This document shows, piece after piece, positions 11,893-31,987 of a stretch of 46,042 bases of DNA; positions within the stretch are counted from its first letter, which is position 1; each line of letters opens with the position of its first letter. The stretch is from Bacillota bacterium (GTDB lineage: Bacteria > Bacillota > Sulfobacillia > JAUYEF01). The notes beneath the pieces are model-generated. The model did not search any database, had not been told where the DNA came from, and saw only the letters and a program-made list of their open reading frames with translations. The stretch spans positions 1 to 46,042 of the forward strand of contig JAUYEF010000194.1 of NCBI GenBank assembly GCA_030691635.1, given 5' to 3'. The translations under genes were made by a program, and so were the position numbers.

Positions 11893-11997
11893 ACCCGCCG
11901 CACCGGCCGTAGTTCGCTCAGCCGTCAGAACTCGCCACACCTGCCGCAGTTCACGCAACCGTCAGAACCCGCCGCACCTGCCGCAGTTCGCGCACGA
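11893..11997. repeat. 37-bp tandem repeat spanning the end of an FtsX gene
   Basis: Two units of 37 bp (11924-11960 and 11961-11997) and a degraded third (11893-11923) lie head to tail. On the minus strand each good unit encodes a Cys-rich end, CANCGRCGGF-stop in the real gene and CVNCGRCGEF-stop in the next copy. The last codons and stop of the permease gene have therefore been duplicated downstream. Confidence 0.7.
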
Positions 11998-13206
11998 AAG
12001 GTTCGGGTTCAGGTACACTCGCCTGTTGTACAGTAGCTGGTCGACTGTCGCGCGGGCCGACAGCGCGACTGGAATCCATGTCGCTGCCACAAACACGAGA
12101 AGCGAATAGAACGCGGCTTTCGCAGGAGCCCAAGGGCTGATCGTCAGCGCATACGGCAGCGCGGGCCCGACCTGCCTGATCACGAGATGCGCCGCGATGC
12201 TCCCAAGCACCGTGCCCACGATCGCCAGCACGAATCCTTCCAGGAACAGGAGGACCCCCGCTTCGCGCGCATCCATGCCGAGCGCCCGCAGGATCCCGAT
12301 TTCCCGCTTGCGGCGAAGGAAAGAAAGAAGTTGCAGGTTGAACATCCCAAGCCCACCAAGCCCGAAAACGAACGATGTGGCAAGGTTGGATGGCGAGAGC
12401 ACGCTTGAGACCAGGCTTGTCATCTTGGCGCTGGGTGAGACCGGAGAGTACACTCTGGCCTCAGGAAGCACCCGCTGGGTCCTGATCTCCAGTTCTCTCA
12501 TGGCTGTGCCCTCATCCACAAACCCGAACAAGGCATTCGGCTGCCGCCCTGCGTCCAGTGCCCGTGCGTCCGCATCCACCGCCACCAGGCAGGTCGCCAC
12601 CACCGACAGCGGCCTGTACGCCCCGACCACGCTGAACGCCCGCTGGAGCAGTTCTCCTCCGGGGCCGGTCCTCGTGACCATGAACCCTTCAGCAGGACCC
12701 GTGAAGCCCAGGGCCTCGGGCACCGCCATCTCGCCGGGCCGGGCCGGCATCCTGCCCCAGACTACTGTGCCCATCCGCTCCAGCGCTTTGGCCTTTGGGT
12801 CCAGGCCAACGAGAGGCATCCTGCCGCCCTGTGACAGAGCGTCGAGCCAGTATCCCTTCTCCAGCAAGTCGATGTCGGGGGCCCTGTCCACTTCCCTCAC
12901 CTGCTCGTCGGACAGCGGGCCAGACACCACGATGAGGTCCGCCGGCAGCGCCAGCGCATCGACACCGGAGAGCGCGCTCCTGCTCGTGGCTGCCGCAAAC
13001 GCCGAGAACAGCAGGTAGATGCAGACGGAAGTCGCGACACACAGCGAGAACACCGCGGTCTTCAGCCGCTCCCGCCTTATGTGCCGTGCCGCGACAGGCC
13101 ACGCCGTGGCGAACGCTTCCTTCCAGGCGCGCCTGCCCTCAGCGGTGACCGTCTCGCGGAGGGCTCGCAGCAGCCGGGGACCGATCCTGTCCGCCATGTC
13201 CATCAT
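11962..13206 (-). CDS. FtsX-like ABC transporter permease with Cys-rich tail
   Basis: A 414-aa membrane protein of the MacB/LolC/FtsX type: a first transmembrane helix near residues 48-70 (TAVFSLCVATSVCIYLLFSAF), an extracytoplasmic domain of about 200 residues, then three C-terminal helices. A coupling segment, LRRKREIGILRALGMDAREA, sits between them. It is a paralogue of the permease at 26275-27621: both end near (V)NQLLYxxRxYL. Only this copy continues into NPNLSCANCGRCGGF, a CxxCxxC tail that could bind metal. ATG overlaps the stop of the ATPase gene by 4 nt. It is the last gene of the leftward operon. The transported substrate is unknown. Confidence 0.8.
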   Translation of the reverse strand: MMDMADRIGPRLLRALRETVTAEGRRAWKEAFATAWPVAARHIRRERLKTAVFSLCVATSVCIYLLFSAFAAATSRSALSGVDALALPADLIVVSGPLSDEQVREVDRAPDIDLLEKGYWLDALSQGGRMPLVGLDPKAKALERMGTVVWGRMPARPGEMAVPEALGFTGPAEGFMVTRTGPGGELLQRAFSVVGAYRPLSVVATCLVAVDADARALDAGRQPNALFGFVDEGTAMRELEIRTQRVLPEARVYSPVSPSAKMTSLVSSVLSPSNLATSFVFGLGGLGMFNLQLLSFLRRKREIGILRALGMDAREAGVLLFLEGFVLAIVGTVLGSIAAHLVIRQVGPALPYALTISPWAPAKAAFYSLLVFVAATWIPVALSARATVDQLLYNRRVYLNPNLSCANCGRCGGF

Positions 13207-13898
13207 GGCTGTGACCTTCCCTCTATGGACGCCACTCGCCCGTCCACAAGCGTCACCACACGGTGTGCGACTTCTGCCACGTGCGGGTCGTGGGAAACCA
13301 CAACGAACGTTTGCCCTTTGTCCCTGTTGAGCCGCTTGAAGAGCTGGATGATCGCCCTGGCGTTATTGCTGTCCAGGTTGCCGGTCGGCTCGTCTGCAAG
13401 CACCACGAGCGGGTCATTCGCCAGCGCCCGCGCGATCGCGACCCTCTGCTGCTCACCACCGGACAGCTCATAGGGCGCGTGCGACGCCCGTGCTTCCACA
13501 CTCACCTCACGCAGCAGGCCCAACGACTTCTGCTTGATGAGCGCCGGCTGGAGCCCGACGAGCCTCATCGGCAACGCGACATTCTCCTCCGCCGAAAGGT
13601 CCGTCAGGAGGTTGAAAAACTGGAACACAAAGCCGAGTCTTGTTCTCCTGAGCCTTGCCAGACCGCTCTCAGAGAGCCTCGAATACTTCCTGTTGTCCAG
13701 GATGATTTCTCCGTAGGTGGGCCTGTCTATGCCTCCAAGCAGGTTCAGCAGTGTAGTCTTGCCGGAGCCCGACGCGCCGGTAATGGCCACGAACTCGCCC
13801 TTCTGGATGGAGAGGTCGACGTTGTCCACCGCAAGCACACCGTCCCCGGCGAGAAACCGCTTCGTCAGTTCGTGGCAGTGCATGACAGGCTCAGTCAT
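13203..13898 (-). CDS. ABC transporter ATPase (LolD/MacB type), module B
   Basis: A 231-aa nucleotide-binding subunit with all catalytic motifs: Walker A GASGSGKTT (about 41-49), the Q-loop in FVFQFFNLL, signature LSGGEQQR, Walker B VVLADEPTGNLD and the H-loop VVSHD. The sequence is of the LolD/MacB/FtsE-like class that drives mechanotransmission rather than substrate translocation through a channel. The gene overlaps the upstream FtsX-like gene by 8 nt and the downstream one by 4 nt, so the three form one ABC complex with two different permeases. Confidence 0.92.
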   Translation of the reverse strand: MTEPVMHCHELTKRFLAGDGVLAVDNVDLSIQKGEFVAITGASGSGKTTLLNLLGGIDRPTYGEIILDNRKYSRLSESGLARLRRTRLGFVFQFFNLLTDLSAEENVALPMRLVGLQPALIKQKSLGLLREVSVEARASHAPYELSGGEQQRVAIARALANDPLVVLADEPTGNLDSNNARAIIQLFKRLNRDKGQTFVVVSHDPHVAEVAHRVVTLVDGRVASIEGRSQP

Positions 13899-15393
13899 CC
13901 TTCAACACCTCCGCCGTTGTCAGGCGCGCCGCCTGGTACGCCGGCCCAAGGCTGAACACCAGCGATATGCCCATTGTGAACGCGATGACACGTCCCAGCG
14001 ACTGCAGGGTGAGCATGCCGGCCCGGAACAAGCCCACGTCCGTGTACAGGTAGATCAAGGTGAAGAAGCCCCGGACCAGGGCAAACCCGGCAAGGGCTCC
14101 GAGCAGGCTGATGCTTGACGCCTCGAGCAGCACCATGGCGAATATCTCAAGCGCCGAGGCCCCGATGGCTTTCAACACACCCATCTCCTTGCGCCTCTGG
14201 GAGAGCAGCACATACATGTTGGCCGTCACGAGAAAACCTGCGCCGGCGTAGGCCAGGGTGTAGAACACGCGGCTCAGGTCCTGCGGCACGGAGGGCTGGC
14301 CGGCTTCCCACCTCGAGTGTTCCACCTGTTCTGGCACAGGCACGAACGTGAGCGACGGGAAGCGCCGGCCGAGCGCGGAGGCGACGGTCTTCGCGTCAAA
14401 CATCGAGTCCACGACGACACCTGCCTGGTATGCGGGAGGCAGGCCGTTTCCGCCCATCTCCGTATACAGCGCGCGCAAGGTGTCGAACGAGACGACTATT
14501 TCGTCGGTCTTCCAGTACCTCTGCACGAGGACCGTCCGCGCCGGGTTATCGAAATCCCCCGGGTAGTGGACCGCCTGCAGCTCGGTAGGGACCGCGAACT
14601 GCCCGACCACCGTCAGGTTGCGGCGGACGAGACTCGAGAAGTCCCACGCTGCCGCGCCGGGGCCTGTCCTTGCCGGGCCGCCGGCAGCCGCACCGGCCGA
14701 GGCGCCGCTGGCCTTCCCGCCCGCGCCGCCAGCCTTCCCCACCCGGGGAAGGAGCACCTCGACGGTACGCCCTGTCTTCGGCGGCGGCAGGCTCGCGGGG
14801 TGCTGGCTCAGCAGCGCCTCGTCCACCACACCGGCCCGGAGATGCCTGCCGTCAGTGATGAACTTGTCGAACCGCCAGCGGGTGGAATCCTGTTCCACAT
14901 CCCGTCCGCGGATCCAGGTCATCACGTGAAGAGGCCCGTCGGGGTCGCCTGGTTTCAGCAGACACGGTATGGAAGGCACCGCCCCGGCGGACTTGACGCC
15001 CTGGACTGACTCAATGGCCCTCAGCACATCGTCCGTGATGGGGCCGCCGCCTGCACCGGCCGGTGTCACGTAGCCCCAGGCCGCCATCGTCGGATGGAAA
15101 TACGCGAGGTCTGTGCCTTCCAGCTCAAAGCCGGGCCGGAAAGTCCAGCGCACATCGCGCTTTGCCTGGTCCAGCCCGGCCTCGGAAGGGCCAAACCTGT
15201 ACTCCCCGGCGTAAATGGCGATATCCGCAGCCATGAACGAGCGGTACTCCTGGTAAGCTTCGACGGCATAGCCGGTGGTCATCGCCGTCGCGCCAGTCAT
15301 GAGCGCAGCCGCCACCGCCATCCCCAGGATCGCGACAAGACTGCGGTTCAGGTTCCGGCGCACGTTCTTGAGCGAAAGAAAGAGCAGAGTCAT
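13891..15393 (-). CDS. FtsX-like ABC transporter permease, module B
   Basis: A 500-aa permease that begins FLSLKNVRRNLNRSLVAILGMAVAAA (first helix). A large outside domain follows, and then LLSQRRKEMGVLKAIGASALE before the last three helices, the standard FtsX/MacB plan. It is paralogous to the permease at 24766-26253 (same start pattern, same AYF/FHP region, same end xTAEVLKDD versus SPMDVFRND). It differs by a Gly/Ala-rich linker of about 30 residues in the outside domain (minus-strand coding around 14660-14750) that the paralogue lacks. Its ATG overlaps the preceding membrane-protein gene by 4 nt. Confidence 0.85.
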   Translation of the reverse strand: MTLLFLSLKNVRRNLNRSLVAILGMAVAAALMTGATAMTTGYAVEAYQEYRSFMAADIAIYAGEYRFGPSEAGLDQAKRDVRWTFRPGFELEGTDLAYFHPTMAAWGYVTPAGAGGGPITDDVLRAIESVQGVKSAGAVPSIPCLLKPGDPDGPLHVMTWIRGRDVEQDSTRWRFDKFITDGRHLRAGVVDEALLSQHPASLPPPKTGRTVEVLLPRVGKAGGAGGKASGASAGAAAGGPARTGPGAAAWDFSSLVRRNLTVVGQFAVPTELQAVHYPGDFDNPARTVLVQRYWKTDEIVVSFDTLRALYTEMGGNGLPPAYQAGVVVDSMFDAKTVASALGRRFPSLTFVPVPEQVEHSRWEAGQPSVPQDLSRVFYTLAYAGAGFLVTANMYVLLSQRRKEMGVLKAIGASALEIFAMVLLEASSISLLGALAGFALVRGFFTLIYLYTDVGLFRAGMLTLQSLGRVIAFTMGISLVFSLGPAYQAARLTTAEVLKDD

Positions 15394-15803
15394 CTGTCGA
15401 GAAGCCTCCGGCCAGGCCTGTACGACCTGTCGTCCTCATCCTCCTGCTTCCACCTGGAGGTCAGGCACAGCAGAAGGACCGGGACGAAGCTGTCCACAAC
15501 CGCCACCACAACAGGAAAGCGGAGCATCTGGTACGCGATCAGGTACCGCTGCAGCACGCAAACGGGCAACCCGTACATCGCAAGAGTGAACAGCTCGTTG
15601 AACAGGTAATCCTCAGGATACACCCAGACGTTCCGCCCGGGCTGGAGCAGGTAGTAGATGACGTCGCTGGTGATCTTCGCGGCGGCGAAGTACACCAGGT
15701 ACCTGGTGAACGGGTCGAGCACCGGCTTCAGGTGGACATGAAGCAGGCCCAGCGGAATGCTGCTGCCGAGCGCGATCACCAGGAACCTCTGCTGCTTGTT
15801 CAT
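15390..15803 (-). CDS. Small multi-pass membrane protein of unknown function
   Basis: A 137-aa protein with about three or four hydrophobic segments (around 8-22, 33-50, 68-90 and 95-115) and a charged C-terminal tail (KQEDEDDRSYRPGRR). I do not recognise a family. It has a GGAG about 9 nt before the ATG, follows the barrel/KOW-like gene by 27 nt and overlaps the next FtsX-like gene by 4 nt. It is therefore built into the operon and is probably an accessory subunit of the exporter complex. No paralogue is present in the divergent arm. Confidence 0.6.
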   Translation of the reverse strand: MNKQQRFLVIALGSSIPLGLLHVHLKPVLDPFTRYLVYFAAAKITSDVIYYLLQPGRNVWVYPEDYLFNELFTLAMYGLPVCVLQRYLIAYQMLRFPVVVAVVDSFVPVLLLCLTSRWKQEDEDDRSYRPGRRLLDR

Positions 15804-15830
15804 GGCAACGGCTCCGTTTCAGCCGCCCTG

Positions 15831-17138
15831 TCAGGCGATCACTTTGAGGTTCGGCGCCGGCACCTCCACAATACGGCCGGGCGCGAGCTCCACCATGGCC
15901 ACCTCTGTCATCTCTTCTGTAACCAGACGGTGCGGTCTCTCCTCCACGCTGACCACTTTGCCGGACCACCCACGGTGGTTGCCCATGAGCACTCTGACCG
16001 TGGCGCCGGCCACGAGATTCTCGGGGATCCTGCGCGCCTCTGCCGACGCGGCATTGAGCCAGGCGTTGCTGCAGATGAGCACCTCCGGCCGTCTGACCCC
16101 CGTCCTCATCTGAGTGGAGCCGGTCACGGAAACCTCGCCGTCAAAGCCCTCAAGCGCCTCATGGAGCGTGGCGGACAGCGGCATAGCGCCGAACCCGTGC
16201 ATCGCGATAAGGGTGAGCCCGAGAGTCTCCCCTCCGGTGAAGCCGCGCACGCCGACGCCCAGTGTCTCAAGAGTCTCAATATCCACTCCGCCGCAGATCA
16301 GAGCCCTTGCCCCGACCGCTATCGCCTTCCTGATCGCTTCCGCGGTGGCCGAAGCGCCCGCCATGAGCACGGCGCCGCTGTCGTCGTCACGCACGTCTTC
16401 CGGCTGGAGCACACTTTCCGGGCCGCACGCTATGCGCGCACGGCCGACCTCCTCACCGCCGATGCCGAAGACACCTTCGAACTCATGGCCCGCTCCCAAG
16501 ACGACCGCCCCGAATTGGGGGATGGTCTCGGTTATCTTCCCCGGTATGTAAGCACTGACCAGAGTTGGCCTGTAAGGCCTGCGGATCGTGATGGTGCCGG
16601 TCCGGCCGCATATCTTCTCAACGATGCCCCTGACAGGTGAGTACACCAGCCCCGCGTAGGCGCCCGCAGACTCAGATGCCAGCTTCGTTCCCATCTTGAC
16701 TTCGTCTTCTTCTTTTACCCGCACGTACCAGCGTATCTGCCAGGGTGGTATGTGCAGTTTCCCCGCCACGTCGATCGTCACGACGGGCTGGTCGGGCTTG
16801 ACCTCTTCACGGATGAGCACCCGGCCATATGCCTCGGAGATGAACTCGATGACCCCGTCGGCCTGCGCCTTGACTTCGCGCACTTCATTTCGCACATGGG
16901 ACCGGGCGATGACGTCCCCAGTCTTGACCCGGGAGCCCTCCTCAGCCAGCATGGCCCCCCTGACCTGGTCGTTCGGGATGCCGAGCTCGCGGACTATGTC
17001 CACGATGTACGGGTTGCCTGGGACAAGCTCGCTGCGGGCGATGACATCCTGGGCCTTCACGAGCGCGCCGGGGGACACAAGCACTTCACCAGGCAGCGGC
17101 AGCCTTCTCTCGCGCCTTATGAGAACCGGGTGAGTCAT
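15831..17138 (-). CDS. Barrel-sandwich / KOW-like protein B, partner of GlmL-like B
   Basis: A 435-aa soluble protein, paralogous to the 395-aa product at 19120-20307. The N-terminal 150 residues contain repeated barrel-sandwich motifs (LPLPGEVLVSPGALVKAQDVIA, GSRVKTGDVIA, ADGVIEFI) like those of biotinyl/lipoyl or RnfC hybrid domains, but with no obvious modified lysine. Next come SPVRGIVEKICGRTGTITIR, a central region (GGVDIETLETLG, LIAMHGFGAMPLS), and a C-terminal KOW-like stretch (GATVRVLMGNHRGWSGKVVSVE). There is no signal peptide or membrane helix. ATG overlaps the stop of the GlmL-like gene as ATGA, so the two are probably made together. Function unknown. Confidence 0.7.
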   Translation of the reverse strand: MTHPVLIRRERRLPLPGEVLVSPGALVKAQDVIARSELVPGNPYIVDIVRELGIPNDQVRGAMLAEEGSRVKTGDVIARSHVRNEVREVKAQADGVIEFISEAYGRVLIREEVKPDQPVVTIDVAGKLHIPPWQIRWYVRVKEEDEVKMGTKLASESAGAYAGLVYSPVRGIVEKICGRTGTITIRRPYRPTLVSAYIPGKITETIPQFGAVVLGAGHEFEGVFGIGGEEVGRARIACGPESVLQPEDVRDDDSGAVLMAGASATAEAIRKAIAVGARALICGGVDIETLETLGVGVRGFTGGETLGLTLIAMHGFGAMPLSATLHEALEGFDGEVSVTGSTQMRTGVRRPEVLICSNAWLNAASAEARRIPENLVAGATVRVLMGNHRGWSGKVVSVEERPHRLVTEEMTEVAMVELAPGRIVEVPAPNLKVIA

Positions 17139-18976
17139 GCGGTCCCACCCCCTTCCGCATTTGCTTGGCGGGCGGGCTTTTCATCCATCCCGGCTCCATC
17201 GACACCGGGATACGCCCTCATCGCCTTGAGCAGTTCGTATAAGGCCTGCCTGCGGCTCTTCCCGTCGAGCGGCCGGCCTCTTGCGTCGACGATGATGCCG
17301 AACAGGCCGCCTTCGACTTTGGTCCTGACCAGACGCCCGGGCCCGGCCCCAACGTCCACGCCCCGCAAAGGCCTCAGCTGGATATCAGCGATGTCTCCAT
17401 CCTTGAGCGGGATCGTGAACACGTCGCCGGCTTTGATGTTGAGCGGCGCGACCCCCTGTCCCGGGAGAGCGATGGTCCCCCTGACCACGACGTCAGAGTG
17501 GACACGCTGGAAAGAGGGGCAGATGGTTGTGCCGAGCGGCAGCAGGTTTGCTTCTAGGAGAGCGAGCCCCTGCCCGTCTTCGACCTCCTCGAGCAGCCCC
17601 GCAACGGGCATGAGTGCCTTTCTATCCAGGTACAGCTCCGTGACGCCCTCCGGCTGGATACCATCCATGATCATGGCCAGCGCCTGCTCGGGCCTGGGAG
17701 CGTGGACCAGCGGCCCGCCCGTGCCGATCACCACATCAACCTGGGGAAGGACGACCCTCCGCTGCCCCGTCCGCACCTGATCGAAGACGTCGCCTATCCC
17801 GCGCCTTTTCTGGACACCCTTGAGCTCCACCGCCAGCCTGTGGTGGTCCTGGAGCGCCGCGTTGATCGCGTACCTGGCCAGCGAGTGTTCGAGAATGAGT
17901 TCCTCGACCGTCTCAGGGATGGTGTTGGGGTTTATCATCTTGTTCGCGACCCAGTTCTTGAACCTGCCGCTGGGCACGTCGACGGCGACCCATGAAGCCA
18001 TGCCTTCGAAGTCTATGCCCTTGCCCCACCCCATCGCGTAACCGACACCGGTGCCGGCTGAAACGGTCCTGTTGAACACCCCGTCCATGACGGAGAAGAC
18101 GTCGGTGGTGGCTCCGCCGACGTCCACCGCGAGCACGTTGATCTTATGGGATGCGGCGAACTTCTCGAGCACGAGCCCGATGGCTGTTGGAGTCGAGCGG
18201 ATGAACCCGCCGGCCCACCGGTCGATCTCAGAGTAGCCCGGAGCCTGGTGCTTCACGTGCTCAAGGAACACCCGGCGGATCTCCTCGCGTGCCGGGCCTG
18301 GGACCTCGCGGTCCATGCTGGGCCGGATGTTGTCCACGAAGCGGACATCCACCGTCTGGCCGCACGTCTCGAGGAACTGGCCTTTCGCGTCGCTGTTGCC
18401 CGCGTAGATCACAGGCGTCTTTGTCCCAACGGCGAAACGCGGCGTGGGAGCGGCCGCCCTCAGGATTTCGCCGAGCGCGACGACGTGCGAGACGTTTCCT
18501 CCATCGGTGCCCCCGGAGACAAGAAGGGCGTCAGGCATGAGGTCGCGCAGCAGGCTGATTCGCTCCGCGACAGTCCGGCCGTCGTCCACGGCGATAACGT
18601 CCAGCACAAGAGCCCCTCCGCCCAGGGCAGCCCTTTGCGCGCTCTCGCCGGTGAGGTCTTTCATGACCCCCATGACCACCATCTGGCAACCGCCGCCGGC
18701 GCTCGACGCCGCGACCATCGCGTCGCACCCGAAGTCGGCCCCGGGAGCGAACACCGGCAGGCCTTCCTTGAGCAGCATCCGGCCTGAAAGGGCCTGGAGC
18801 CCCGCTATGGCATCCTTCACCCCGGTGGACACATCCTCATGGGGCCGCTCGACTGTCGTGGGAGCGAAGGAAGTGGCCACAACGGCCCACTGCCCGTCCC
18901 GTTTCTGGAGAAGTGCCGCCTTGACGGTGGTAGAACCTATGTCAAGGCCTATGAGTGTGCTGAAATGGGTAACCAA
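17135..18976 (-). CDS. GlmL/MutL-like ASKHA ATPase B
   Basis: A 613-aa protein of the GlmL/MutL family (ASKHA fold). Classical members are tied to coenzyme-B12 carbon-skeleton mutases such as glutamate mutase. Phosphate-1 is LIGLDIGSTTVKAAL (about 8-22), the family block ESAQRAALGGGA is near 111-122, phosphate-2 is VDVGGATTDVFSV (about 284-296) and the adenosine motif is VIGTGGP (about 416-422). All look intact. TTG 18976 has GGGGGTGG 8 nt upstream; an ATG nine codons earlier lacks one. No mutase S or E subunit gene is in the window; instead it overlaps a barrel/KOW-like gene and lies among ABC exporter genes, so the mutase role is doubtful. Confidence 0.8.
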   Translation of the reverse strand: MVTHFSTLIGLDIGSTTVKAALLQKRDGQWAVVATSFAPTTVERPHEDVSTGVKDAIAGLQALSGRMLLKEGLPVFAPGADFGCDAMVAASSAGGGCQMVVMGVMKDLTGESAQRAALGGGALVLDVIAVDDGRTVAERISLLRDLMPDALLVSGGTDGGNVSHVVALGEILRAAAPTPRFAVGTKTPVIYAGNSDAKGQFLETCGQTVDVRFVDNIRPSMDREVPGPAREEIRRVFLEHVKHQAPGYSEIDRWAGGFIRSTPTAIGLVLEKFAASHKINVLAVDVGGATTDVFSVMDGVFNRTVSAGTGVGYAMGWGKGIDFEGMASWVAVDVPSGRFKNWVANKMINPNTIPETVEELILEHSLARYAINAALQDHHRLAVELKGVQKRRGIGDVFDQVRTGQRRVVLPQVDVVIGTGGPLVHAPRPEQALAMIMDGIQPEGVTELYLDRKALMPVAGLLEEVEDGQGLALLEANLLPLGTTICPSFQRVHSDVVVRGTIALPGQGVAPLNIKAGDVFTIPLKDGDIADIQLRPLRGVDVGAGPGRLVRTKVEGGLFGIIVDARGRPLDGKSRRQALYELLKAMRAYPGVDGAGMDEKPARQANAEGGGTA

Positions 18977-19119
18977 GTCAGAACCCACCCCCAATTCATC
19001 CATCCAAGACGTTTTTACCGTATCGGCTCAAGGCTGTCCAGTACCGCTTCCGGGTACTTTCGGGATACGGCCGCCCGAATCCCGGCACGAGGACGCAACC
19101 GGGCCGCCTGAGGATGGAA

Positions 19120-20307: not shown

Positions 20308-22121
20308 GAGGCGCCACCCCCTTCCCATCCGGCAAGAACACCTGAGGGACATGCACCGAAGTCCTTCCACCACTCTATCAAGCGCGCCAGCCGCCTTGCC
20401 TCAACGGACGGTAGCGACAGGGGCCTCGGACGCATATCCAGGATGACTCCTGCCGGGCCACCCTTCACTTCCATCCGCACTCTCTTGCCCGGGCCATCGC
20501 CAAAGTCTATGCCTCGCGCCGGCATCATGTGAAGCACGGCCGTCTCTCTGGTCTCAAGCGGCAGGCGCTGGATCCGGCCCGCTTGGAGCCTGATCTTCTG
20601 CCGGCCGCGCACGGTCTCCAGTGAGGCGCTACCCAGCGAGCTCGATAGCCGCAGCCCGCCCTGGCTTTTCGTCTCCAGGGGCGATACGCAGGTGCCGAGG
20701 AGTTCCAGCGAGTCGAGGACCGCATCCGGGGTGATCTCCGAGCCCTGCAGAAGCTCACCGCAAAAGGGCAGCAGGCCTGCGGTGTCGGCATAGATCCGGT
20801 TGGCTCCCGCAGTCTCGAGGGCTTCCGTGGCGATCATCATGATCTGGTTGGGCGTCCTGCCTGCAAGCCAACCGCCACCGAGAATGATGTTCTCGCACTT
20901 GGACAGGTTCACGATCGTCTGGCCACCGACTGTCTCGTAGCCGAAGATCTCATAGATCTGGCGCCTGCGCTGTATACCGCGCAAGAGCACGGCGAGGCTC
21001 ATGTGTTCCTGCAGCCCCAGCCGGGCTTCCTCGCGCACGATGGCCAGCCGGATCGCAAGCTCCTCCCATGTCTCCGGCACCGTCTGTGGCCTGATCATCC
21101 TGTTGCCGACCACTGTGCAAATGGTATCCTCAGCCGCCGGAAAAGGCAGCCAGCGTTGAAGCCGCCCTGGGCGCAGTCTCGCGGTAGCCCCGTTCGACAC
21201 GAGCCCCCACAGGTCCGTGACCGTCCGGTTCAACGCTCCACCGATGGACGAGTACACGCTCGTGAAAGCTCCGCCGACGTCCACAAACAGGATGTTCTCA
21301 CCGAGGCGCCGCGCGGCCTCTTCGATCGCGCGGCCGGTCGCGTACCCAGCCGGGTCGACGCCGGTGCCAAGTCTCCCGTATCTCGGGCTCTTGCCGAGGA
21401 GCGAACGGAAAATGTCCCGGACTGCGGTTCTGGCGGGTTCAAGGTTCTCATTCTCGAGCTTGGGTCGAACGTTCTCGGTTATCTCAAGGGGCGCCACCCC
21501 GTCGAATATCCCTTTGATCTCATCGCGGACCAGGACGCTGCCCGCATAGACGACGGTCGGAGGCCGTGTCTCAGAGACACGCGAACGCGGAAGGCCAGAG
21601 GAAAGAAGATTGGCGACCGTCACGGCCTGGCGGCCGGGCGCCCTGTCCATGCTGGTGAAATCATCCACCCCTCCGGCCAGGATGAGCATGTCGATCGGCC
21701 GCTGCCGCAGGGCGACACGCTTCTCGTGTGGAAGCCTTTCATCATTGATCGCGAAAACATCGCTGACGCAAGCGCCGCCGAGCAAAGCGGCACGCTGGGC
21801 GCTTTCCGCCGAGATGTCCCTGAACACGCCGGCCACGGCGGCGAGCGTCGCTCCCGCCACGCTCGAGGTGACAAAAAGGCCTTCAAGGCCGGATTCGGGG
21901 TGCGGTTTCAGCGGGACGGCGTCCTGAAGAAGCGGTGTCCCGAGCGACTCTTCCATCTCCGCGACCGCCTGAAGGATCCCGTGCGACACATCGTCGAGCC
22001 CGAACCCGGCGGTCGTGAGCGCCTCGCCTCTCGCGACGACCGTGACCCGGTCCTCAACCTCCACGACCAGCGCTTTCGTCTTCACACTGCCGCATTCCAC
22101 GTAGAGGAATCTTCTGGCCAC
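20304..22121 (-). CDS. Divergent GlmL/MutL-like ASKHA protein A
   Basis: A 605-aa paralogue of the GlmL-like protein at 17135-18976. Shared blocks include ESAQRAALLGGACVSDVFAIND (about 105-127), FVDVGGAFTSVYSS (phosphate-2, about 289-302), NRMIRPQTVPETWEEL, ILGGGWLAG (adenosine site, about 413-421) and the C-terminal RGIDFGDGPGKRVRMEVKGG. The phosphate-1 motif is altered: YVECGSVKTKALVV has Glu where the ASKHA Asp is expected. ATP hydrolysis may therefore be weak, with a structural or regulatory role beside protein B. GTG 22121 overlaps the stop of the upstream ATPase gene by 1 nt (TAGTG). Its stop overlaps the barrel/KOW partner. Confidence 0.75.
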   Translation of the reverse strand: MARRFLYVECGSVKTKALVVEVEDRVTVVARGEALTTAGFGLDDVSHGILQAVAEMEESLGTPLLQDAVPLKPHPESGLEGLFVTSSVAGATLAAVAGVFRDISAESAQRAALLGGACVSDVFAINDERLPHEKRVALRQRPIDMLILAGGVDDFTSMDRAPGRQAVTVANLLSSGLPRSRVSETRPPTVVYAGSVLVRDEIKGIFDGVAPLEITENVRPKLENENLEPARTAVRDIFRSLLGKSPRYGRLGTGVDPAGYATGRAIEEAARRLGENILFVDVGGAFTSVYSSIGGALNRTVTDLWGLVSNGATARLRPGRLQRWLPFPAAEDTICTVVGNRMIRPQTVPETWEELAIRLAIVREEARLGLQEHMSLAVLLRGIQRRRQIYEIFGYETVGGQTIVNLSKCENIILGGGWLAGRTPNQIMMIATEALETAGANRIYADTAGLLPFCGELLQGSEITPDAVLDSLELLGTCVSPLETKSQGGLRLSSSLGSASLETVRGRQKIRLQAGRIQRLPLETRETAVLHMMPARGIDFGDGPGKRVRMEVKGGPAGVILDMRPRPLSLPSVEARRLARLIEWWKDFGACPSGVLAGWEGGGAS

Positions 22122-22822
22122 TATCCCTGCGCCTCTTGCTTCTCGTCTATCCCCACAATACGCCCATCACGCATGTGTGCCACGCGGTCTGCGTATTGTG
22201 TCATGGATTCATCGTGGGAAACAACCACAAACGTCTGCTTCATCTCGTGGTTAAACCTCTGGAAAAGGGCCGCTATCTCGCCTGATGTCTTGGAATCGAG
22301 GTTGCCGGTCGGCTCGTCGGCCAGCACTATGCTGGGGCTGTTCGCGAGCGCCCTTGCGATTGCCACGCGCTGCTGCTCGCCACCCGACATCTGAAGCGGC
22401 CTGTGGCTCTTTCTTGCATTTAGTCCCACGGCATCCAGCAGGCTGGATGCCTTATCCTTGATGCTCGACTCATCCTTGCCCATGAACCTCATGGGAAGCG
22501 TGACATTCTCGAGCGCGGTGAGGTGAGGGATCAGGTTGAAGAACTGGAAGACGAAGCCCAGTTTCTCGCGCCTGAGCCCGGCGAGGCCGTTCTCGTTCAG
22601 CAGGCTGTACCGGGACCCGTCGAGGATGATCTCGCCGCTGATCGGCCGGTCAAGGCCCCCCAGCAGGCTGAGCAGCGTGCTCTTGCCGCTGCCCGACGGC
22701 CCCATGATGACTATGAACTCGCCCGGCTCGACCGAGAGGCTGACGTTGTTCACCGCATAGATCGTTTCGCCCAGGAAGAAGGCTTTGTTCAGGCTTATCG
22801 CCCTGAGGATAGGCTCCTGCAA
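22121..22822 (-). CDS. ABC transporter ATPase (LolD/MacB type), module A
   Basis: A 233-aa nucleotide-binding subunit with Walker A GPSGSGKST, the Q-loop in FVFQFFNLI, signature MSGGEQQR, Walker B IVLADEPTGNLD and the H-loop VVSHDES. It closely resembles the ATPase at 13203-13898. TTG 22822 is the likely start: GGAGG lies 7 nt upstream and the product then begins LQEPILRAISLNKAF, matching family length. Earlier starts would run into the divergent gene. It is transcribed away from the adaptor and permeases at 22945-27621, with which it probably forms module A. It also heads the leftward operon carrying both GlmL-like pairs. Confidence 0.9.
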   Translation of the reverse strand: MQEPILRAISLNKAFFLGETIYAVNNVSLSVEPGEFIVIMGPSGSGKSTLLSLLGGLDRPISGEIILDGSRYSLLNENGLAGLRREKLGFVFQFFNLIPHLTALENVTLPMRFMGKDESSIKDKASSLLDAVGLNARKSHRPLQMSGGEQQRVAIARALANSPSIVLADEPTGNLDSKTSGEIAALFQRFNHEMKQTFVVVSHDESMTQYADRVAHMRDGRIVGIDEKQEAQG

Positions 22823-22944
22823 GAAACCACCTCCGAGTCCATTCCTTGTATTTCTCGTAAGTTCGCTCCCATTCCTACCGGCGACGGCAGGTAAAGAGTT
22901 GTGGAAATTGAATTTAGCCGTTACCCACATCTGGGGGGATCGGC

Positions 22945-24753
22945 TTGGCTTTGCGCCCCGGCATGGCTTTGCGCCCTCGCCGCAGGGCAATCATACTCGT
23001 GCTGCTCGTGATCTTGGCCGCTGCTACCGTGGTGCTGTCGGTGTGTTATTTCATCGGCTCGCGCCGGCTGGAAGACAGTGCGAGACTCAAAGCCGAACTC
23101 ACAGGGAAAGTCCTCACCTCTCTGCCGGAATTCGGGATACGCCAAAGCATCGAAGAGGCCTTCAAGCCCAAGTACCGCACGGTTCCCGCCATTCGCACGG
23201 ACATTACCGAGCAGGCGGTCGCCTCTTCTCGATCAGCGTATGCTCGCAAGGGCGAAATCCGCACGCGCATAGCCGCTGAGGTCACCAAGGTGCTTGTGAA
23301 TCCGGGTGATAAAGTGAAGGCCGGTCAGTCCCTGGCGGAGCTCTTCAACGAGAGCGCTCTCCCACTGCTGGCACAGGCCCGGCTGGACCTGGAGGTCCAG
23401 CAACAGAGGCATTCGCGCCTCGCCGACCCGGAAGCGTCACGGGTGAACGAGTACGACCTGGCCACCCTGAAGTTGAAGGTGCGCCAGGCGGAGATACAGG
23501 TCGAACTGCGCCGCCTTGAGCTCGCGAAACTCACGGCATCAGCTCCGTCCCCGGGGCGGATTGTATCATACAAGGTCGCCGCCGGGGATACGGCATCCTC
23601 CGGCCAGGTGCTCGCGACCCTCTACGACGATTCCCGGATGGTGGTCGTCGCCAGCGTGCCCCAGGCTGATGTGCCGAGCGTCTCTCCCGGCATGAGAGCG
23701 CTCATAAGCCTGGGAACCAGCCTCTCGCCTGTCTACGGCAAGGTCGTGTCCACCGGCTATGAAGCGACTGTGGTGGGCAGGAGCGCTGTTCTGCCGGTCT
23801 CCATAGAGGTGGACAACGCTTCTGGCCAATTGAAGAGCGGCATGCTCGCAAACGTGGTCATCTACACCGGCACGGACACCATGGTCACGGCCTCCGGCAC
23901 ATGTTCTCCCGGAGCGCGATTGGACGTCAAGTCGCAGACGTCCGGCGTGGTGGCCTCGCGCCTGGTGGAAGAGGGTGCGGTCGTCGCGTCAGGCCAGCCC
24001 TTGGTCAAGCTTTCGAACAGGGCCCTCGAGATCGCCCTGGAACAGGCGGAAAACGATCTGGCGCTTGCCGGAATAGCCCTCGACAAGTACCTGTCACCCG
24101 CCGCGGCGGGTGAGGAGCCCGATGTGAAGGCCCAGGCGCTCAGGGTCGATCAAGCTCAGACGCTGGTGGAAAGCCGCCAGGGCGATCTTGATTCCCTTAC
24201 CGTCAAGGCTCCTTTTGACGGAGTGGTGACCAAAGTGCCGGTAAAGCCCGGCGACCGGCTGGCGGCCGGGGCGACAGTGCTGACGGTGCAGGACCCCACG
24301 CGCGTCCAGGTCCAGGTGGCGGTCCCAGAGATGTACGTGAGCAGGATCAAACAGGGCCAGCAGGCCGACGTGGTGTTTGAGACTCGGCCGGACCTGCCCT
24401 ATGTAGGGAAGATAGTGTCCGTCGACGCTGAAGGACAGCCGAAGGACAAGACAGCCACCTTCGACGTCACCGTGGAAGTGGACAAGGCTCAGGACGTGCT
24501 GCCCGGTATGGTCGCCAAGGTCACCATCACCATCGAGACCAAGGAGAACGTGCTCGCGGTACCTGCCAGGCTCGTCCAGCTGTCCGGCCTTGACAAGGTC
24601 GTGAACGTGCTGCGCGAAGACAAGAAGGACTTCTGGAAGCGAAAGATCGTCCAGACCGTGGTCGTCGATACAGGCATCACGGATGGAGTGCTTATAGAGA
24701 TCACATGCGGGCTTGAAGACGGTGACGAACTCATAGTGCCTGAGACAAAGTAG
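22945..24753 (+). CDS. Double-length HlyD/MacA-like adaptor (membrane fusion) protein
   Basis: A 602-aa protein with one N-terminal membrane helix (AIILVLLVILAAATVVLSVCYF, about 14-35) and then two successive adaptor modules. Module 1 has a half-barrel (AEVTKVLVNPGDKVKAGQSL), a coiled coil (about 140-190), its return half (GRIVSYKVAAGDTASSGQVL) and a beta-barrel region. A second barrel start (QTSGVVASRLVEEGAVVASG), coiled coil and return half (PFDGVVTKVPVKPGDRLAAG) follow, ending in beta-barrel and membrane-proximal domains. Usual members are 350-450 aa. The start is TTG with a GGGG run 7 nt upstream; ATG 22963 is an alternative. It should connect the FtsX-like permeases encoded just downstream to the outside or to a cargo. 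Confidence 0.82.
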   Translation: MALRPGMALRPRRRAIILVLLVILAAATVVLSVCYFIGSRRLEDSARLKAELTGKVLTSLPEFGIRQSIEEAFKPKYRTVPAIRTDITEQAVASSRSAYARKGEIRTRIAAEVTKVLVNPGDKVKAGQSLAELFNESALPLLAQARLDLEVQQQRHSRLADPEASRVNEYDLATLKLKVRQAEIQVELRRLELAKLTASAPSPGRIVSYKVAAGDTASSGQVLATLYDDSRMVVVASVPQADVPSVSPGMRALISLGTSLSPVYGKVVSTGYEATVVGRSAVLPVSIEVDNASGQLKSGMLANVVIYTGTDTMVTASGTCSPGARLDVKSQTSGVVASRLVEEGAVVASGQPLVKLSNRALEIALEQAENDLALAGIALDKYLSPAAAGEEPDVKAQALRVDQAQTLVESRQGDLDSLTVKAPFDGVVTKVPVKPGDRLAAGATVLTVQDPTRVQVQVAVPEMYVSRIKQGQQADVVFETRPDLPYVGKIVSVDAEGQPKDKTATFDVTVEVDKAQDVLPGMVAKVTITIETKENVLAVPARLVQLSGLDKVVNVLREDKKDFWKRKIVQTVVVDTGITDGVLIEITCGLEDGDELIVPETK

Positions 24754-24765
24754 GAGGTTTCGCGG

Positions 24766-26253
24766 TTGGTTTTCGTCAGGCTGGGATTGGTAAACGTCCG
24801 GCGCAATATGGGCCGAAGCGTGCTTTCCGTCGTGGGAATGGCTCTGGCTGCGATGATCCTGTCATCCACTCTCCCGGTGGCCGAAGGCTACCCTGCCCAG
24901 GCATTCAAGGTCCAGCGGCAGTTTGTGGGCGGCGACATCATCGTCTACCCCGGGAAGTACCGGCCATCGCGCGCCGACATAAGCTCGGGCGAAAACACGG
25001 AATGGACGTACGACAGGCTCCCGTCCGACATTCTCTCGGACCTCAGCTCGTTCCACCCCGAGTACTTCCTGCACGGCTTTCTGAGGAGATCGTCCACGTC
25101 CACCAACTACATCAACGCGGACGACATCGTGAAGGCCGGGATCAACCGGAAGAACTATGTAGCAGGCATGACGCTCTACCAATCGGTGCCGTCTTTTATA
25201 AGGAAGATCGACGAGAAGGGCACGGAACAGGCATGGTTCTCCCCGCTCCGCTCGCGCGACCCGGTTTTCGACAAGGACATGGACTGGGACGAGATCATCA
25301 CCGCCGGCCGGGCTTTCATCCGCTGCGACGATGGCAAACCGCACTGCATCGTCGACAGCAGGCGGCCCTCCATTCGCGGATACCAGCAGCTCGCCGTCGG
25401 CTCGACCATAACCGTCGAAGTCCCGGCGGTGCGCAGGGACCAGTCCGGCAACTACTACTTCGACTACACAAACCGGAAGAGCTACGACCTGAAGGTCGTT
25501 GGACGCTACACACTGCCCACGCGACTGCTGACGTGGCAGGACGAGCTGGGCTATACGTTGTCTGAGCAGCTCTACTGGACCACGCCTCAGGTGCTGGTCC
25601 CTCAGATGACACTGTCGAAGATCTGGTTTGAGGCTTCCGGTGGCCTGCCGGTGCCCACGACTGAAATAGCCATCCGGGTCAAGAACATGGCCTTCCTCGA
25701 GAACAACGCTGCCGACCTCGCGTCCGCGCTGCCACAGCACACGGTCGTGAGCGTCCCGGCGCAGGTGCAGGACGCGTGGTCCAGAGGCCAGCCTGAGCCG
25801 GTCTTCCGGTACCCGGAGCCCCTGGCGCGCCCGGATGAGATCCGCCAGACCGGAGCGCCGATGGACCTTCGCGGCGTCGTCGTAATGATAACCTACTCCA
25901 TCGCCGCGCTCCTTGTCGCCTCAAACATGCTGATCGCTCTCGCCCAGCGCAGGAGGGAGATCGGCATCCTTAAGGCGCTGGGCGCGAGGTCGAAGGAGAT
26001 CATGATGATGGTCCTCTCAGAAGTGCTTTTCGTGAGCATCTTTGGGGCCACGGCGGGATTCGTGCTGCTGCGGTCGGCTTCCCTGTGGACGTACCTGTCC
26101 AACAGGATGCCTGTGCTACAGATAGGAGTGCTCACGCTTTCCGACTTCTTCCGGGTGTTCGCCACCACTGTGCTGTTTGCGGTCATCTTCGGGACCCTGC
26201 CGGCACTGGGAACGCTCAGGCTTTCGCCGATGGACGTTTTCCGCAACGACTGA
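24766..26253 (+). CDS. FtsX-like ABC transporter permease, module A
   Basis: A 495-aa permease with the MacB/FtsX plan. It starts LGLVNVRRNMGRSVLSVVGMALAAM (first helix), has an outside domain of about 330 residues, then ALAQRRREIGILKALGARSKEIMMM and three C-terminal helices. It is paralogous to the module B permease at 13891-15393. The start is TTG with AGGAGG upstream, 12 nt after the adaptor stop, so the adaptor and both permeases form one transcript. The ATPase for this module is most likely the divergent gene at 22121-22822. Confidence 0.87.
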   Translation: MVFVRLGLVNVRRNMGRSVLSVVGMALAAMILSSTLPVAEGYPAQAFKVQRQFVGGDIIVYPGKYRPSRADISSGENTEWTYDRLPSDILSDLSSFHPEYFLHGFLRRSSTSTNYINADDIVKAGINRKNYVAGMTLYQSVPSFIRKIDEKGTEQAWFSPLRSRDPVFDKDMDWDEIITAGRAFIRCDDGKPHCIVDSRRPSIRGYQQLAVGSTITVEVPAVRRDQSGNYYFDYTNRKSYDLKVVGRYTLPTRLLTWQDELGYTLSEQLYWTTPQVLVPQMTLSKIWFEASGGLPVPTTEIAIRVKNMAFLENNAADLASALPQHTVVSVPAQVQDAWSRGQPEPVFRYPEPLARPDEIRQTGAPMDLRGVVVMITYSIAALLVASNMLIALAQRRREIGILKALGARSKEIMMMVLSEVLFVSIFGATAGFVLLRSASLWTYLSNRMPVLQIGVLTLSDFFRVFATTVLFAVIFGTLPALGTLRLSPMDVFRND

Positions 26254-26274
26254 TCAGGGAGGACATACCGGGGC

Positions 26275-27621
26275 TTGTTTAACAAGATCGGCGACATCCA
26301 ATGGATGGCAATGCATAACCTCTGGCGCCAGCGGACGCGCAACGCCATCATGGCGGGGGTCCTGGCTCTGGGGATAACTGCGTATCTTGTGGTCGTCCCG
26401 ATCATGGATGCGCTGGCCGAAAAGGCCGTAGCCAGGACTCAGCGCCTCGATATGCCCTGTGACCTTGCCCTGGTGATGAACCACATGATCCGGTACCAGG
26501 AGTTCAACGAGATCGACCCCACGCAGAACAAGGAAGAGATGATCTGTCCTGCTGCGCAGGGCGCCCGGCGCCTTCCGTGGGATGCTCTGAAGGGATTCGC
26601 GCGTGTCGAGTTCGCCGCGCTGGAGCAGGCTTATTCGCCTGCCGGCTCCGTTGATGTGCTGTATGCCTCTCCACAGTCCACATGGTTCTTGCGCGCGATA
26701 AACATCGAGTCGGGCAAAGCCCCCGCGTCCAGGGATGAGGTCATTGTTCCCGTCTGGTTCGCGCGCCGCGCCAGGGTCACTGTGGGCTCGACGCTCACGC
26801 TCGTGTTTCCGTACACGCCGCTTCACAGGCTCGAAGACCACGAGTTCACGGTCACAGGCGTTTTCTCCACGGACTTCGCGCTGGCGGACGCACCCGTCAT
26901 ATGGGAGGATTCGTACCACCAGCACGAGCTCAGCGAACTGACCGAGTACGGCACGCGGGGGTCGGGCGCCCGCATGCTCGCCATGTTTGACCTGGGCGGC
27001 GCGCGGACCGATGCTCAGGCGGCGATCCGTGACCTCCGGTCGGCCTTCGAGGCGCTCAACGCATCGGTGGCCGGTGGCAGGATATGGTATACGTTCCAGG
27101 CATCCACCGGGCTTGTGCCCAACCAGGCTGAGATCACGGCGAGGACTCTGACGCAGGACATCCAGATGCCGGCGATAAACGCGCTGTTCCTCGCGTTTGT
27201 GTTCGTGGCGGTGGGCCTGTTCACAGTGATGTTGCTATCGTTCTATGACAGGAGACGCGACATCGCCATAATGAAGACCGTGGGTATCGGCAACAGCGAC
27301 GTCGCTTCAGTGATCATTGCGGAAATCGCCATTGTCACGATCGCCGGAGTGCTTGTAGCTGCCGGGCTGTCGTCCTTCGCGGTAAAATCGCTGAGCGGCA
27401 GTGTTTGGGCCGGAGTTCTCGAGGTGAAGTGGGTCAACATCCTGAAGGGCGCCGCGGTCGGCTTCCTGGTGATGGCGTTTTCCGCAGCGTTCCCTGTCAG
27501 CCTCGCCCACGTCGCGACCGTGAACCAGCTGCTGTATGACCAGAGGATATACCTCTTCCACCGCAAGATCACCCGGACGGTCAACGCGCCCGCCGGCCGA
27601 CCGCGGAGGCTTGGCCGGTAA
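26275..27621 (+). CDS. FtsX-like ABC transporter permease, second subunit of module A
   Basis: A 448-aa permease: first helix near residues 25-45 (IMAGVLALGITAYLVVVPIMD), an outside domain, then SFYDRRRDIAIMKTVGIGNSDVASV and C-terminal helices. It matches the partner arrangement of the module B permease at 11962-13206, including NQLLYDQRIYL near the end, but lacks that protein's Cys-rich tail. TTG 26275 follows GGGAGG at a rather long distance (about 13 nt) with a closer GGGG. A heterodimer with the 24766-26253 protein is likely. Confidence 0.85.
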   Translation: MFNKIGDIQWMAMHNLWRQRTRNAIMAGVLALGITAYLVVVPIMDALAEKAVARTQRLDMPCDLALVMNHMIRYQEFNEIDPTQNKEEMICPAAQGARRLPWDALKGFARVEFAALEQAYSPAGSVDVLYASPQSTWFLRAINIESGKAPASRDEVIVPVWFARRARVTVGSTLTLVFPYTPLHRLEDHEFTVTGVFSTDFALADAPVIWEDSYHQHELSELTEYGTRGSGARMLAMFDLGGARTDAQAAIRDLRSAFEALNASVAGGRIWYTFQASTGLVPNQAEITARTLTQDIQMPAINALFLAFVFVAVGLFTVMLLSFYDRRRDIAIMKTVGIGNSDVASVIIAEIAIVTIAGVLVAAGLSSFAVKSLSGSVWAGVLEVKWVNILKGAAVGFLVMAFSAAFPVSLAHVATVNQLLYDQRIYLFHRKITRTVNAPAGRPRRLGR

Positions 27622-27626
27622 GCGGC

Positions 27627-27643
27627 CCGTGCCCACAGCACGG
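27627..27643. terminator. Hairpin between convergent genes
   Basis: CCGTGC, loop CCACA, GCACGG form a perfect 6-bp stem in the 46-bp gap between the convergent permease and regulator genes. Neither side has a clear T-run, so it is a weak bidirectional terminator candidate. Confidence 0.35.
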
Positions 27644-27667
27644 CGTTCTGCTGCGACAACCATAACC

Positions 27668-28975
27668 CTACCGGAAATGCTGCAGTTTCAGCCTGTATAT
27701 GTGCCTGGGCCTGCCCCTCTTGTAGGGCTGCTCCTCACCCACTGGCTCCGCCAGATCTGACGCCACCAGCTTGGAGATCAGCCTTCTCCCGCTCCGGGCC
27801 GTCACTCCCAGCGCTCTTGCCATTTCGGCCGCCGTGACTGGCTCGAACGACCTGGACCCGGCGAAAGCCAGCAGCCTGTCGATGGTTGCCACGCTGAGCC
27901 CCGTCCTCGCGGCGAGGGACCTGTATACAGTGTTCTCTGTGCGGAGGCTGTATGCCAGCGACTGGCCGGCGCCGATCGGCCCGATGATATCGCGGGAGTT
28001 CACCACTGCATGGGCGACGTCTCCACCACGCTGGTGCGAATAGTGAAGCGCTATTCTGGCGCTCGCGTGAGCGGCCGCCGCAGTCGGCCCCAGCCCCATG
28101 CCTATGCTGACCTTGAGCGGCATCTTGTTCCGGATGATCTCGAGCAACGAGGAGCGAGTCCAGTAAGACGTCGACGCCTCGACGGTCCGCCTTGTGGAAA
28201 CGATCAGGAACTCGTCGTCGCCAAGAGCCTGGAGCGATGCCTCCATCCTCTCGGCGTAGTCGAGCAGCAGCTTGTGCAGCTCCAGCTTGGTTCGCTGGAC
28301 ACCATACTCCGAACCCGAGGTCCGTAACACGTCGTCGAAATTGTCGATCTTGATCAAGGTTATCACGAGCTCAGCCTCTCTTGACCTCAAGGCCCGGCCC
28401 TCAATCACGGCCCTCGATAGGCCTTCCCGCATCGCGGTTTCGTCCGGAATGACTCTCCAAACGTCAAGGCCCATGTCATGCAGAGCAACGTACGTCGACC
28501 GCAGGCACGTCAGGGCAGAGGTCGCCCCGCTTTCAAGGCAGCCCAGGTGGAACCCGGTGAGTTCCTCCGCCGTAACCGGCCCGTGATACTCACGCACCTT
28601 TACGTTGGAGAAGTCCAGGCCCAGCCCGTTGTATATCTCTTCCAGCGCACGCTTCTCCAGCGTGTCCATGCTGATCCGGGTGAGATCCTTCTGCTTTATG
28701 GCCATTTCAAGCAGAGTCTTGTAGACACTGGACCCGGAAAATGAAATATGAAGCAGCGGGAATCGCACGTCCACCGATTTGGACGCGTAGAACGGGACAG
28801 GCCCGGTGAAGAGTGCGACGTTCATCAACGACGCATGCTTCTTAACGATGTCCGGCGCCTCGGTTTCGTGGGTATATGCCAGCCCGTGGGCCTCCAGCTC
28901 ATCGAACTCCTTGGCTATGCTCAGGACGCGCTCAACAAGGTCTGCGGGGCCTATCACTCCGGTGACGGTCTTCAT
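27668..28975 (-). CDS. GGDEF-like / winged-helix transcriptional regulator
   Basis: A 435-aa soluble protein in three parts. The first (1-200) resembles a ligand-sensing domain of the PrpR-N or periplasmic-binding type, with GPADLVERVLSIAKEFDELEA and FPLLHISFSGSSVYK. The middle (about 205-345) is a GGDEF/GTP-cyclohydrolase-III-like fold, where ALGDDEFLIV stands in for GGDEF and VSIGMGLGPTAAAAH follows. The C-terminus is a winged helix (EMARALGVTARSGRRLISKL, then KRGRPRHIYRL). The signature is GDDEF, so cyclase activity is doubtful and nucleotide sensing is more likely. ATG 28975 has GAGGG 9 nt upstream. Lying next to the ABC/GlmL cluster, it is a candidate regulator of it. Confidence 0.7.
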   Translation of the reverse strand: MKTVTGVIGPADLVERVLSIAKEFDELEAHGLAYTHETEAPDIVKKHASLMNVALFTGPVPFYASKSVDVRFPLLHISFSGSSVYKTLLEMAIKQKDLTRISMDTLEKRALEEIYNGLGLDFSNVKVREYHGPVTAEELTGFHLGCLESGATSALTCLRSTYVALHDMGLDVWRVIPDETAMREGLSRAVIEGRALRSREAELVITLIKIDNFDDVLRTSGSEYGVQRTKLELHKLLLDYAERMEASLQALGDDEFLIVSTRRTVEASTSYWTRSSLLEIIRNKMPLKVSIGMGLGPTAAAAHASARIALHYSHQRGGDVAHAVVNSRDIIGPIGAGQSLAYSLRTENTVYRSLAARTGLSVATIDRLLAFAGSRSFEPVTAAEMARALGVTARSGRRLISKLVASDLAEPVGEEQPYKRGRPRHIYRLKLQHFR

Positions 28976-29094: not shown

Positions 29095-29182
29095 AACTAG
29101 TGCGAAGAAAGAGCGTCCGTGTCGATGGGTAGCCAAACCACCAGCGAAATCCCCCAATACCTTTAGCCTGGGAGTGTGTTCA

Positions 29183-31842: not shown

Positions 31843-31865
31843 CTTAGGTGAGATTCGACAAACAT

Positions 31866-31973
31866 AGAGGCCTAATCCCAGGAATGGGAACGGGGGAACC
31901 ACTACCAGGGGTGAATTCGGAAGGAAGGGCTGCCTTCTCGGCCCTAACCCGTCAGCTAACCTCGTAGGCCTGC
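31866..31973 (+). ncRNA. ydaO/yuaA-type (c-di-AMP) riboswitch aptamer
   Basis: Conserved core elements appear in order: AATCCCAGGAATGGGAACGG from 31874, GGGGGAACCA, GGGGTGAAT (31908-31916) and the hallmark GTCAGCTAACCTCGTAGGC (31951-31969). The closing helix P1 pairs AGGCCTA (31868-31874) with TAGGCCT (31965-31971) perfectly. This class binds cyclic di-AMP and usually turns genes off, often genes for cell-wall hydrolases, osmolyte and potassium transport. Here it leads the 125-aa gene at 32015. Confidence 0.88.
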
Positions 31974-31987
31974 GAGAGGGGGCAAGG

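Follow-up and report, generated by a model that had tools for sequence, protein, structure and literature searches.

We analyzed a window of 46,042 nt from a Bacillota bacterium (GTDB lineage Bacteria; Bacillota; Sulfobacillia; JAUYEF01; assembly GCA_030691635.1, contig JAUYEF010000194.1, positions 1 to 46,042), in which positions 11962–28975 carry genes for ATP-binding cassette (ABC) transporters together with two gene pairs, each encoding a MutL/GlmL-like ASKHA protein and a barrel/KOW protein. The open reading frame (ORF) list and Pfam/NCBIfam scans recovered every gene that an initial annotation had named there, and the Pfam domains and the profile and fold of the KOW domain bore out its account of their content. 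Nine minus-strand genes form one tight leftward operon with 4-base start/stop overlaps at several junctions; in order of transcription, they encode ATP2, MutL A, barrel A, MutL B, barrel B, Mem137, FtsX2, ATP1 and FtsX1. The divergent plus strand encodes a double HlyD adaptor, then FtsX3, then FtsX4 (Table 1). Gene calls at the loci are codon-model predictions, with locus L206 read by tblastn, and the window's genome is a fragmented draft that is ~97% complete.

Table 1. Genes of the cluster, with strand and the evidence for each assignment (TM, transmembrane segment).
Feature	Position	Strand	Evidence
FtsX1, type VII-like ABC permease, module B	11962..13206	-	Pfam FtsX 4e-14; N-terminal TM and C-terminal TMs; orthologues adjoin MutL B loci
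ATP1, LolD-like ABC ATPase, module B	13203..13898	-	ABC_tran 3e-31; below LolD equivalog cut-off; Walker A, LSGGE, Walker B and H-loop intact
FtsX2, ABC permease, module B, paralogue of FtsX3	13891..15393	-	Pfam FtsX 7e-11; full-length relatives in barrel-bearing genomes only
Mem137, 137-aa small membrane protein	15390..15803	-	no Pfam family; two clear TMs
Barrel/KOW protein B	15831..17138	-	AlphaFold2 pLDDT 91.7; KOW by profile and fold; weak RnfC_N and DUF2118
MutL/GlmL-like ASKHA protein B	17135..19003	-	PF13941 3e-95; ATP motifs intact; AlphaFold2 model matches ASKHA folds
Barrel/KOW protein A, without second barrel	19120..20307	-	no Pfam match; aligns with barrel family
MutL/GlmL-like ASKHA protein A	20304..22121	-	PF13941 9e-54; decayed ATP motifs, as in relatives
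ATP2, LolD-like ABC ATPase, module A	22121..22822	-	ABC_tran 1e-34; motifs intact; 69% identity to module A ATPase of L206
Double HlyD-type adaptor	~22963..24753	+	HlyD_D23 1e-38, HlyD_3 3e-38; single N-terminal TM
FtsX3, ABC permease, module A	24808..26253 (ORF from 24766)	+	Pfam FtsX 1.5e-13; orthologues adjoin MutL A loci
FtsX4, ABC permease, module A, paralogue of FtsX1	26305..27621 (ORF from 26275)	+	Pfam FtsX 4e-11
Protein with GdpP-like GGDEF domain, membership uncertain	27668..28975	-	GGDEF_GdpP 1.2e-7; HTH matches sub-threshold only; convergent to FtsX4

The transporter genes have the features of type VII ABC systems, namely an FtsX domain, a large extracytoplasmic loop between TM1 and the C-terminal TMs, and a LolD-like ATPase. 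Hydropathy, from which the topology is taken, gives all four permeases an N-terminal TM, a large loop and C-terminal TMs, while both ATPases keep the Walker A, signature, Walker B and H-loop motifs. Best-match assignment of the permeases pairs FtsX1 with FtsX4 and FtsX2 with FtsX3 as paralogues. Module B consists of FtsX1, its ATPase, FtsX2, the small membrane protein, barrel B and MutL B, and module A consists of FtsX3, its ATPase, FtsX4, MutL A and barrel A.

Each module resembles LolCDE in having two permeases and a LolD-like ATPase, but the LolD and LolCE equivalog cut-offs were not reached (LolCE matches were weak) and no Omp85 or OEP (TolC-type) gene was matched in the window's genome. 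The best MacB equivalog scores were far below the cut-off of 966; likewise, the FtsE and FtsX equivalogs were not reached (211 of 265 bits and about 11 of 225 bits, respectively). We rejected identity with LolCDE because of the sub-threshold scores and missing outer membrane genes, and identity with MacAB-TolC because of the missing OEP and the low MacB scores. Since neither Omp85 nor OEP was matched in the genome, a true Lol or MacAB-TolC function is judged unlikely from sequence, and so is Lol-type delivery of lipoproteins, which the initial annotation had listed among the known objects of such systems. The YknWXYZ transporter of Bacillus is a MacB-like system of Gram-positive bacteria whose four components include a small membrane protein and an HlyD adaptor (PMC4887032). 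The cluster shares these features with YknWXYZ and MacAB-like pumps, but has two permeases per module, additional MutL-barrel pairs and no TolC, and its adaptor is present at the window locus only, among the loci compared. Because no close homologue of the double HlyD adaptor was found at the sister loci compared, it is best regarded as a local addition. A phage origin was rejected in view of the lack of PHROG matches, and a defence system was rejected because PADLOC matched nothing beyond the LolE-like portion of CARF fusions.

Both MutL proteins match PF13941 and share the ASKHA family with the GlmL/MutL accessory proteins (PF13941, NCBIfam GlmL, Or-4), and MutL B shares their ATP motifs as well. 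They differ from these proteins in falling below the GlmL, Or-4 and glmL_fam cut-offs (182.6 and 90.7 bits against the GlmL equivalog cut-off of 475), in being about 150 amino acids (aa) longer and in forming a separate clade. In a FastTree phylogeny of 131 proteins, MutL A and MutL B fall within a long MutL clade (~600–650 aa, 116 rows, support 100) that stands apart from short MutL proteins (~450–480 aa). None of 115 long MutL genes had a B12-binding gene within six genes, whereas such genes were found near 6 of 14 short MutL controls; two further short controls (L187, L189) adjoin lysine/ornithine-aminomutase-like subunits that the profile missed. As initially annotated, the locus itself has no mutase gene, with no called gene of the window matching the B12-binding profile. 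Because no mutase lies in the neighborhoods, we rejected a mutase helper role; by their sequences, the GlmL-like proteins of the locus are not mutase helpers but members of the separate long MutL branch.

The near-constant neighbor of long MutL genes is instead a barrel gene: for 112 of 115 it is the next gene downstream, on the same strand. Of the other three, one involves a gene that the gene caller missed, one is itself fused to a barrel and one is a protein of the short type. In two genomes, MutL and barrel occupy a single reading frame (L172:1312-4758, 1148 aa, and L173:5006-7798, 930 aa). Homologues beside mutases, combined with an ABC link at this locus only, would have spoken against the proposal of the initial annotation, and this pattern was not observed: mutases were absent as described, and the ABC link recurs in 10 families.

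The two MutL proteins differ at their ATP sites. MutL B keeps the motifs DIGSTTVK, SSAGGG, DVGGATTD and the adenosine GG (GTGG), and therefore has the ASKHA phosphate-1, phosphate-2 and adenosine motifs as well as the fold; its model matches the ASKHA folds of acetophenone/acetone carboxylase subunits, hydantoinase, PilM, FtsA, DnaK and a corrinoid reactivator. MutL A lacks intact ATP-site motifs, with 8 of 20 motif residues changed. Across its clade, which has long branches in the tree, 8–15 of the 20 residues are changed where the sequence is complete, and the L206 copy shows the same trend when judged by eye. Because these motifs have decayed, MutL A is probably a pseudo-ATPase, as far as its sequence indicates. 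The paired duplication first noted at the locus holds in number, with two pairs and two modules, but the loss of the MutL A site means that the two pairs are not equivalent. The result is an ATPase and pseudo-ATPase pair with a clear module assignment.

Structural similarity brings in a different role for the ASKHA protein, as an actin-like scaffold of the PilM or FtsA type that places the transporters and does not regulate their ATPase. The PDB matches of the MutL B model include PilM and FtsA, and FtsEX has been reported to interact with FtsA, an ASKHA-fold divisome protein (PMC6705773). We consider such a scaffold improbable, as the ATP motifs of MutL A have decayed and the PDB matches are at the fold level only.

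Barrel B was modelled with confidence and has two barrel-sandwich-like regions, a middle domain and a C-terminal KOW domain, which matches the SPT5 KOW by profile (E 8e-5) and by fold (TMt 0.87). No PDB entry matched the whole chain; the KOW domain alone was matched. Weak profile matches (RnfC_N, DUF2118; lipoyl/biotinyl-like) point to barrel-sandwich domains. We rejected a biotin/lipoyl carrier identity because no conserved lysine was seen by eye at the barrel hairpin. The barrel/KOW family is defined here, its coverage by Pfam/NCBIfam being partial (weak for barrel B and none for barrel A).

These lipoyl/biotinyl-like regions could belong to a pair that chaperones or matures a cytoplasmic enzyme or carrier, similar to a B12 reactivase or an ATP-dependent HyuA-type protein, with the operon reflecting co-regulation only. 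The MutL family name and fold agree with this role, as do the best structural matches, which include ASKHA subunits of acetophenone and acetone carboxylase, hydantoinase and the corrinoid-protein reactivator. However, no common enzyme partner was noticed across the 115 neighborhoods, which also have no B12 gene nearby, and the pair's companions are membrane proteins in several unrelated settings. Together with the missing hairpin lysine, these observations make an enzyme chaperone unlikely, though the most serious competitor to a transporter role.

We surveyed 61 genomes of the class and found barrel homologues in 29, spanning 17 families. Type VII ABC genes adjoin the MutL-barrel pair in 10 of these families (f1, f2, f4, f5, f6, f20, f24, f27, f28 and f40). 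FtsX domains occur at ~2.6 per Mb, so that a randomly chosen position would have one within 5 kb with a probability of no more than ~2.5%, an estimate that assumes three pairs per genome. Full-length permeases of the FtsX2/FtsX3 type were found in 19 of 29 barrel-positive genomes and in none of the 32 barrel-negative genomes (Fisher 7e-9).

Moreover, the types of permease, ATPase and MutL match across genomes. FtsX1/FtsX2 types accompany MutL B and barrel B (L048, L050, L055, L056, L083, L089, L199, L200, L201 and L211), and FtsX3/FtsX4 types accompany MutL A and barrel A (L074, L076 and L206); the module A gene set was found together in L206, L074, L075 and L076. In L075, MutL A and barrel A follow FtsX3/FtsX4, and a second FtsX2-ATPase-FtsX1 set has a Mem137 homologue with no MutL B alongside. 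Three loci (L047, L051 and L053) retain barrel A beside FtsX3/FtsX4 and have lost MutL A, while the permease types of L097 could be assigned only ambiguously. Mem137 homologues lie beside the barrel in L043, L047, L051, L053, L068 and L207, and beside FtsX2 in L075. Because module-specific permease types track the MutL and barrel types, the duplicated pair mirrors the duplicated ABC module, which supports one pair per module, one of the two arrangements suggested in the initial annotation.

Some of these loci carry additional genes. Genes for regulators with an XRE helix-turn-helix (XRE-HTH) and tetratricopeptide repeats (TPR) lie beside the MutL B module in four cases (L083:3053-5020, L055:5087-7097, L056:14384-16234 and L054:14521-16602). 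Regulators of this architecture are often of a peptide-sensing kind, and their position suggests peptide-linked regulation. At the two-pair locus L047, NuoF-like and formate-dehydrogenase-like genes come next.

Several observations weigh against a dedicated partnership between the pairs and ABC transporters. Many pairs of the ABC clade lack a neighboring ABC gene (L043, L046 and some among L080-L086 are examples), so the link is not obligatory, and it is absent from the pairs of other phyla. FtsX domains are common, a shared operon can mean co-regulation and not contact, and the families within the class are related and therefore not fully independent. The ABC link is seen in 10 families of the class, but the pair is not only an ABC partner, because most pairs, including those of other phyla, sit with DUF6754 cassettes or other genes.

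Scanning genome contigs yielded at least 567 relatives of the barrel, with the listed phyla including Bacillota, Bathyarchaeota, WOR-3, Zixibacteria, Planctomycetota, Armatimonadota and Marinimicrobia. Outside the class, the common neighbor of the pair is a four-gene membrane cassette containing DUF6754, which lies near 36 of the 115 long MutL genes. Like the window locus, this uncharacterized arrangement places a long MutL and barrel/KOW pair next to membrane proteins, and it does so in many phyla, but it has four small membrane proteins where the window locus has an ABC transporter. Since DUF6754 is the main companion outside the class, the pair seems to partner membrane machines generally, with the ABC link looking like a variant at the level of the class. 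MsbA-type exporters also neighbor pairs (L044, L045, L049 and L052), and their presence and that of the cassettes support a membrane-machine partnership. A large branch of matches to the "MutL/GlmL mutase" family is thereby separated from B12 chemistry and tied to membrane machines, which points to the pair as a widespread, uncharacterized partner of such machines; a literature search found no paper naming PF13941 or DUF6754.

Within the class, DUF6754 tracks the barrel: 24 of 29 barrel-positive genomes carry it, and none of the 32 barrel-negative genomes does (p 2e-12). This distribution, together with the many pairs that lack an ABC link, is what one would expect if long MutL-barrel pairs worked with DUF6754 systems only and the ABC-adjacent ones were stray paralogues in a chance or selfish neighborhood. 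Such an explanation is very unlikely, considering the adjacency in 10 families, the matching permease types, the 4-base overlaps and the co-occurrence of permeases with the barrel. The window's genome has 27 DUF6754 copies, and all 14 of the DUF6754 loci examined (L158-L171) stand alone, without MutL or barrel nearby. Their cassettes encode DUF6754 and proteins of ~206, ~272 and ~200 aa, are often near peptidase-like or amino-acid-enzyme-like genes when judged by eye, and are possibly a large unstudied transporter family. We tentatively raise a broader possibility, to which we give rather less than even credence: long MutL and barrel/KOW may together be an ancient ATPase-adaptor module of general use, powering or gating several membrane machines that are unrelated to one another (DUF6754 cassettes among bacteria and archaea and, within this class of Bacillota, type VII ABC systems and MsbA-type exporters). 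Where a genome is rich in DUF6754, a small number of pairs may then be shared by many stand-alone cassettes, in loose analogy to the energizing unit that ECF transporters share.

For the window locus, the MutL-barrel adjacency and fusions, the ABC co-occurrence, the matched types and the decay of MutL A lead us to favor, with modest confidence, two sister heterodimeric type VII ABC modules that were duplicated as a unit, each with its own MutL-barrel pair as a cytoplasmic switch or coupler. According to this mechanism, the long MutL, an ASKHA ATPase, would bind the barrel/KOW protein. Both proteins are apparently cytoplasmic, with no convincing TMs by hydropathy and one hydrophobic stretch in MutL A, and the pair would dock on the cytoplasmic face of the ABC complex, where it would switch or couple the ABC ATPase cycle. 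The ABC module would then pass force to an extracytoplasmic process, which may be the extrusion of a peptide or lipid or the control of a wall enzyme; the pairs may sense, load or gate a cargo, as first proposed. After duplication of the whole system, module B would have kept an intact ASKHA ATPase, while the ASKHA protein of module A would have decayed to a structural or regulatory pseudo-ATPase.

The switching or coupling role is proposed by analogy to type VII ABC cofactors (SweD/SweC, FtsA). SweD and SweC, which need their conserved intracellular domains to function, are cofactors of FtsEX in B. subtilis (PMC6705773, PMC8998562). FtsEX and its cofactors resemble the window system in having an FtsX permease, a LolD/FtsE-like ATPase and cofactors with intracellular parts. 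However, the window permeases are larger, heterodimeric and duplicated, and their partners are a MutL-type ASKHA protein and a barrel/KOW protein, with no homology to FtsA or SweDC shown. If the two-module mechanism is true, a widespread, uncharacterized system becomes open to experiment.

Just past the cluster, positions 29174-31285 (+) encode an N-acetylmuramoyl-L-alanine amidase with four SH3 repeats, a conceivable candidate for a wall-enzyme client. The GdpP-like GGDEF gene sits between the cluster and this amidase gene. Farther downstream, a strong c-di-AMP riboswitch (RF00379, 95 bits) lies at 31859-31985 (+), flanked by a CheX-like gene and a gene for a pyridoxal phosphate-dependent enzyme.

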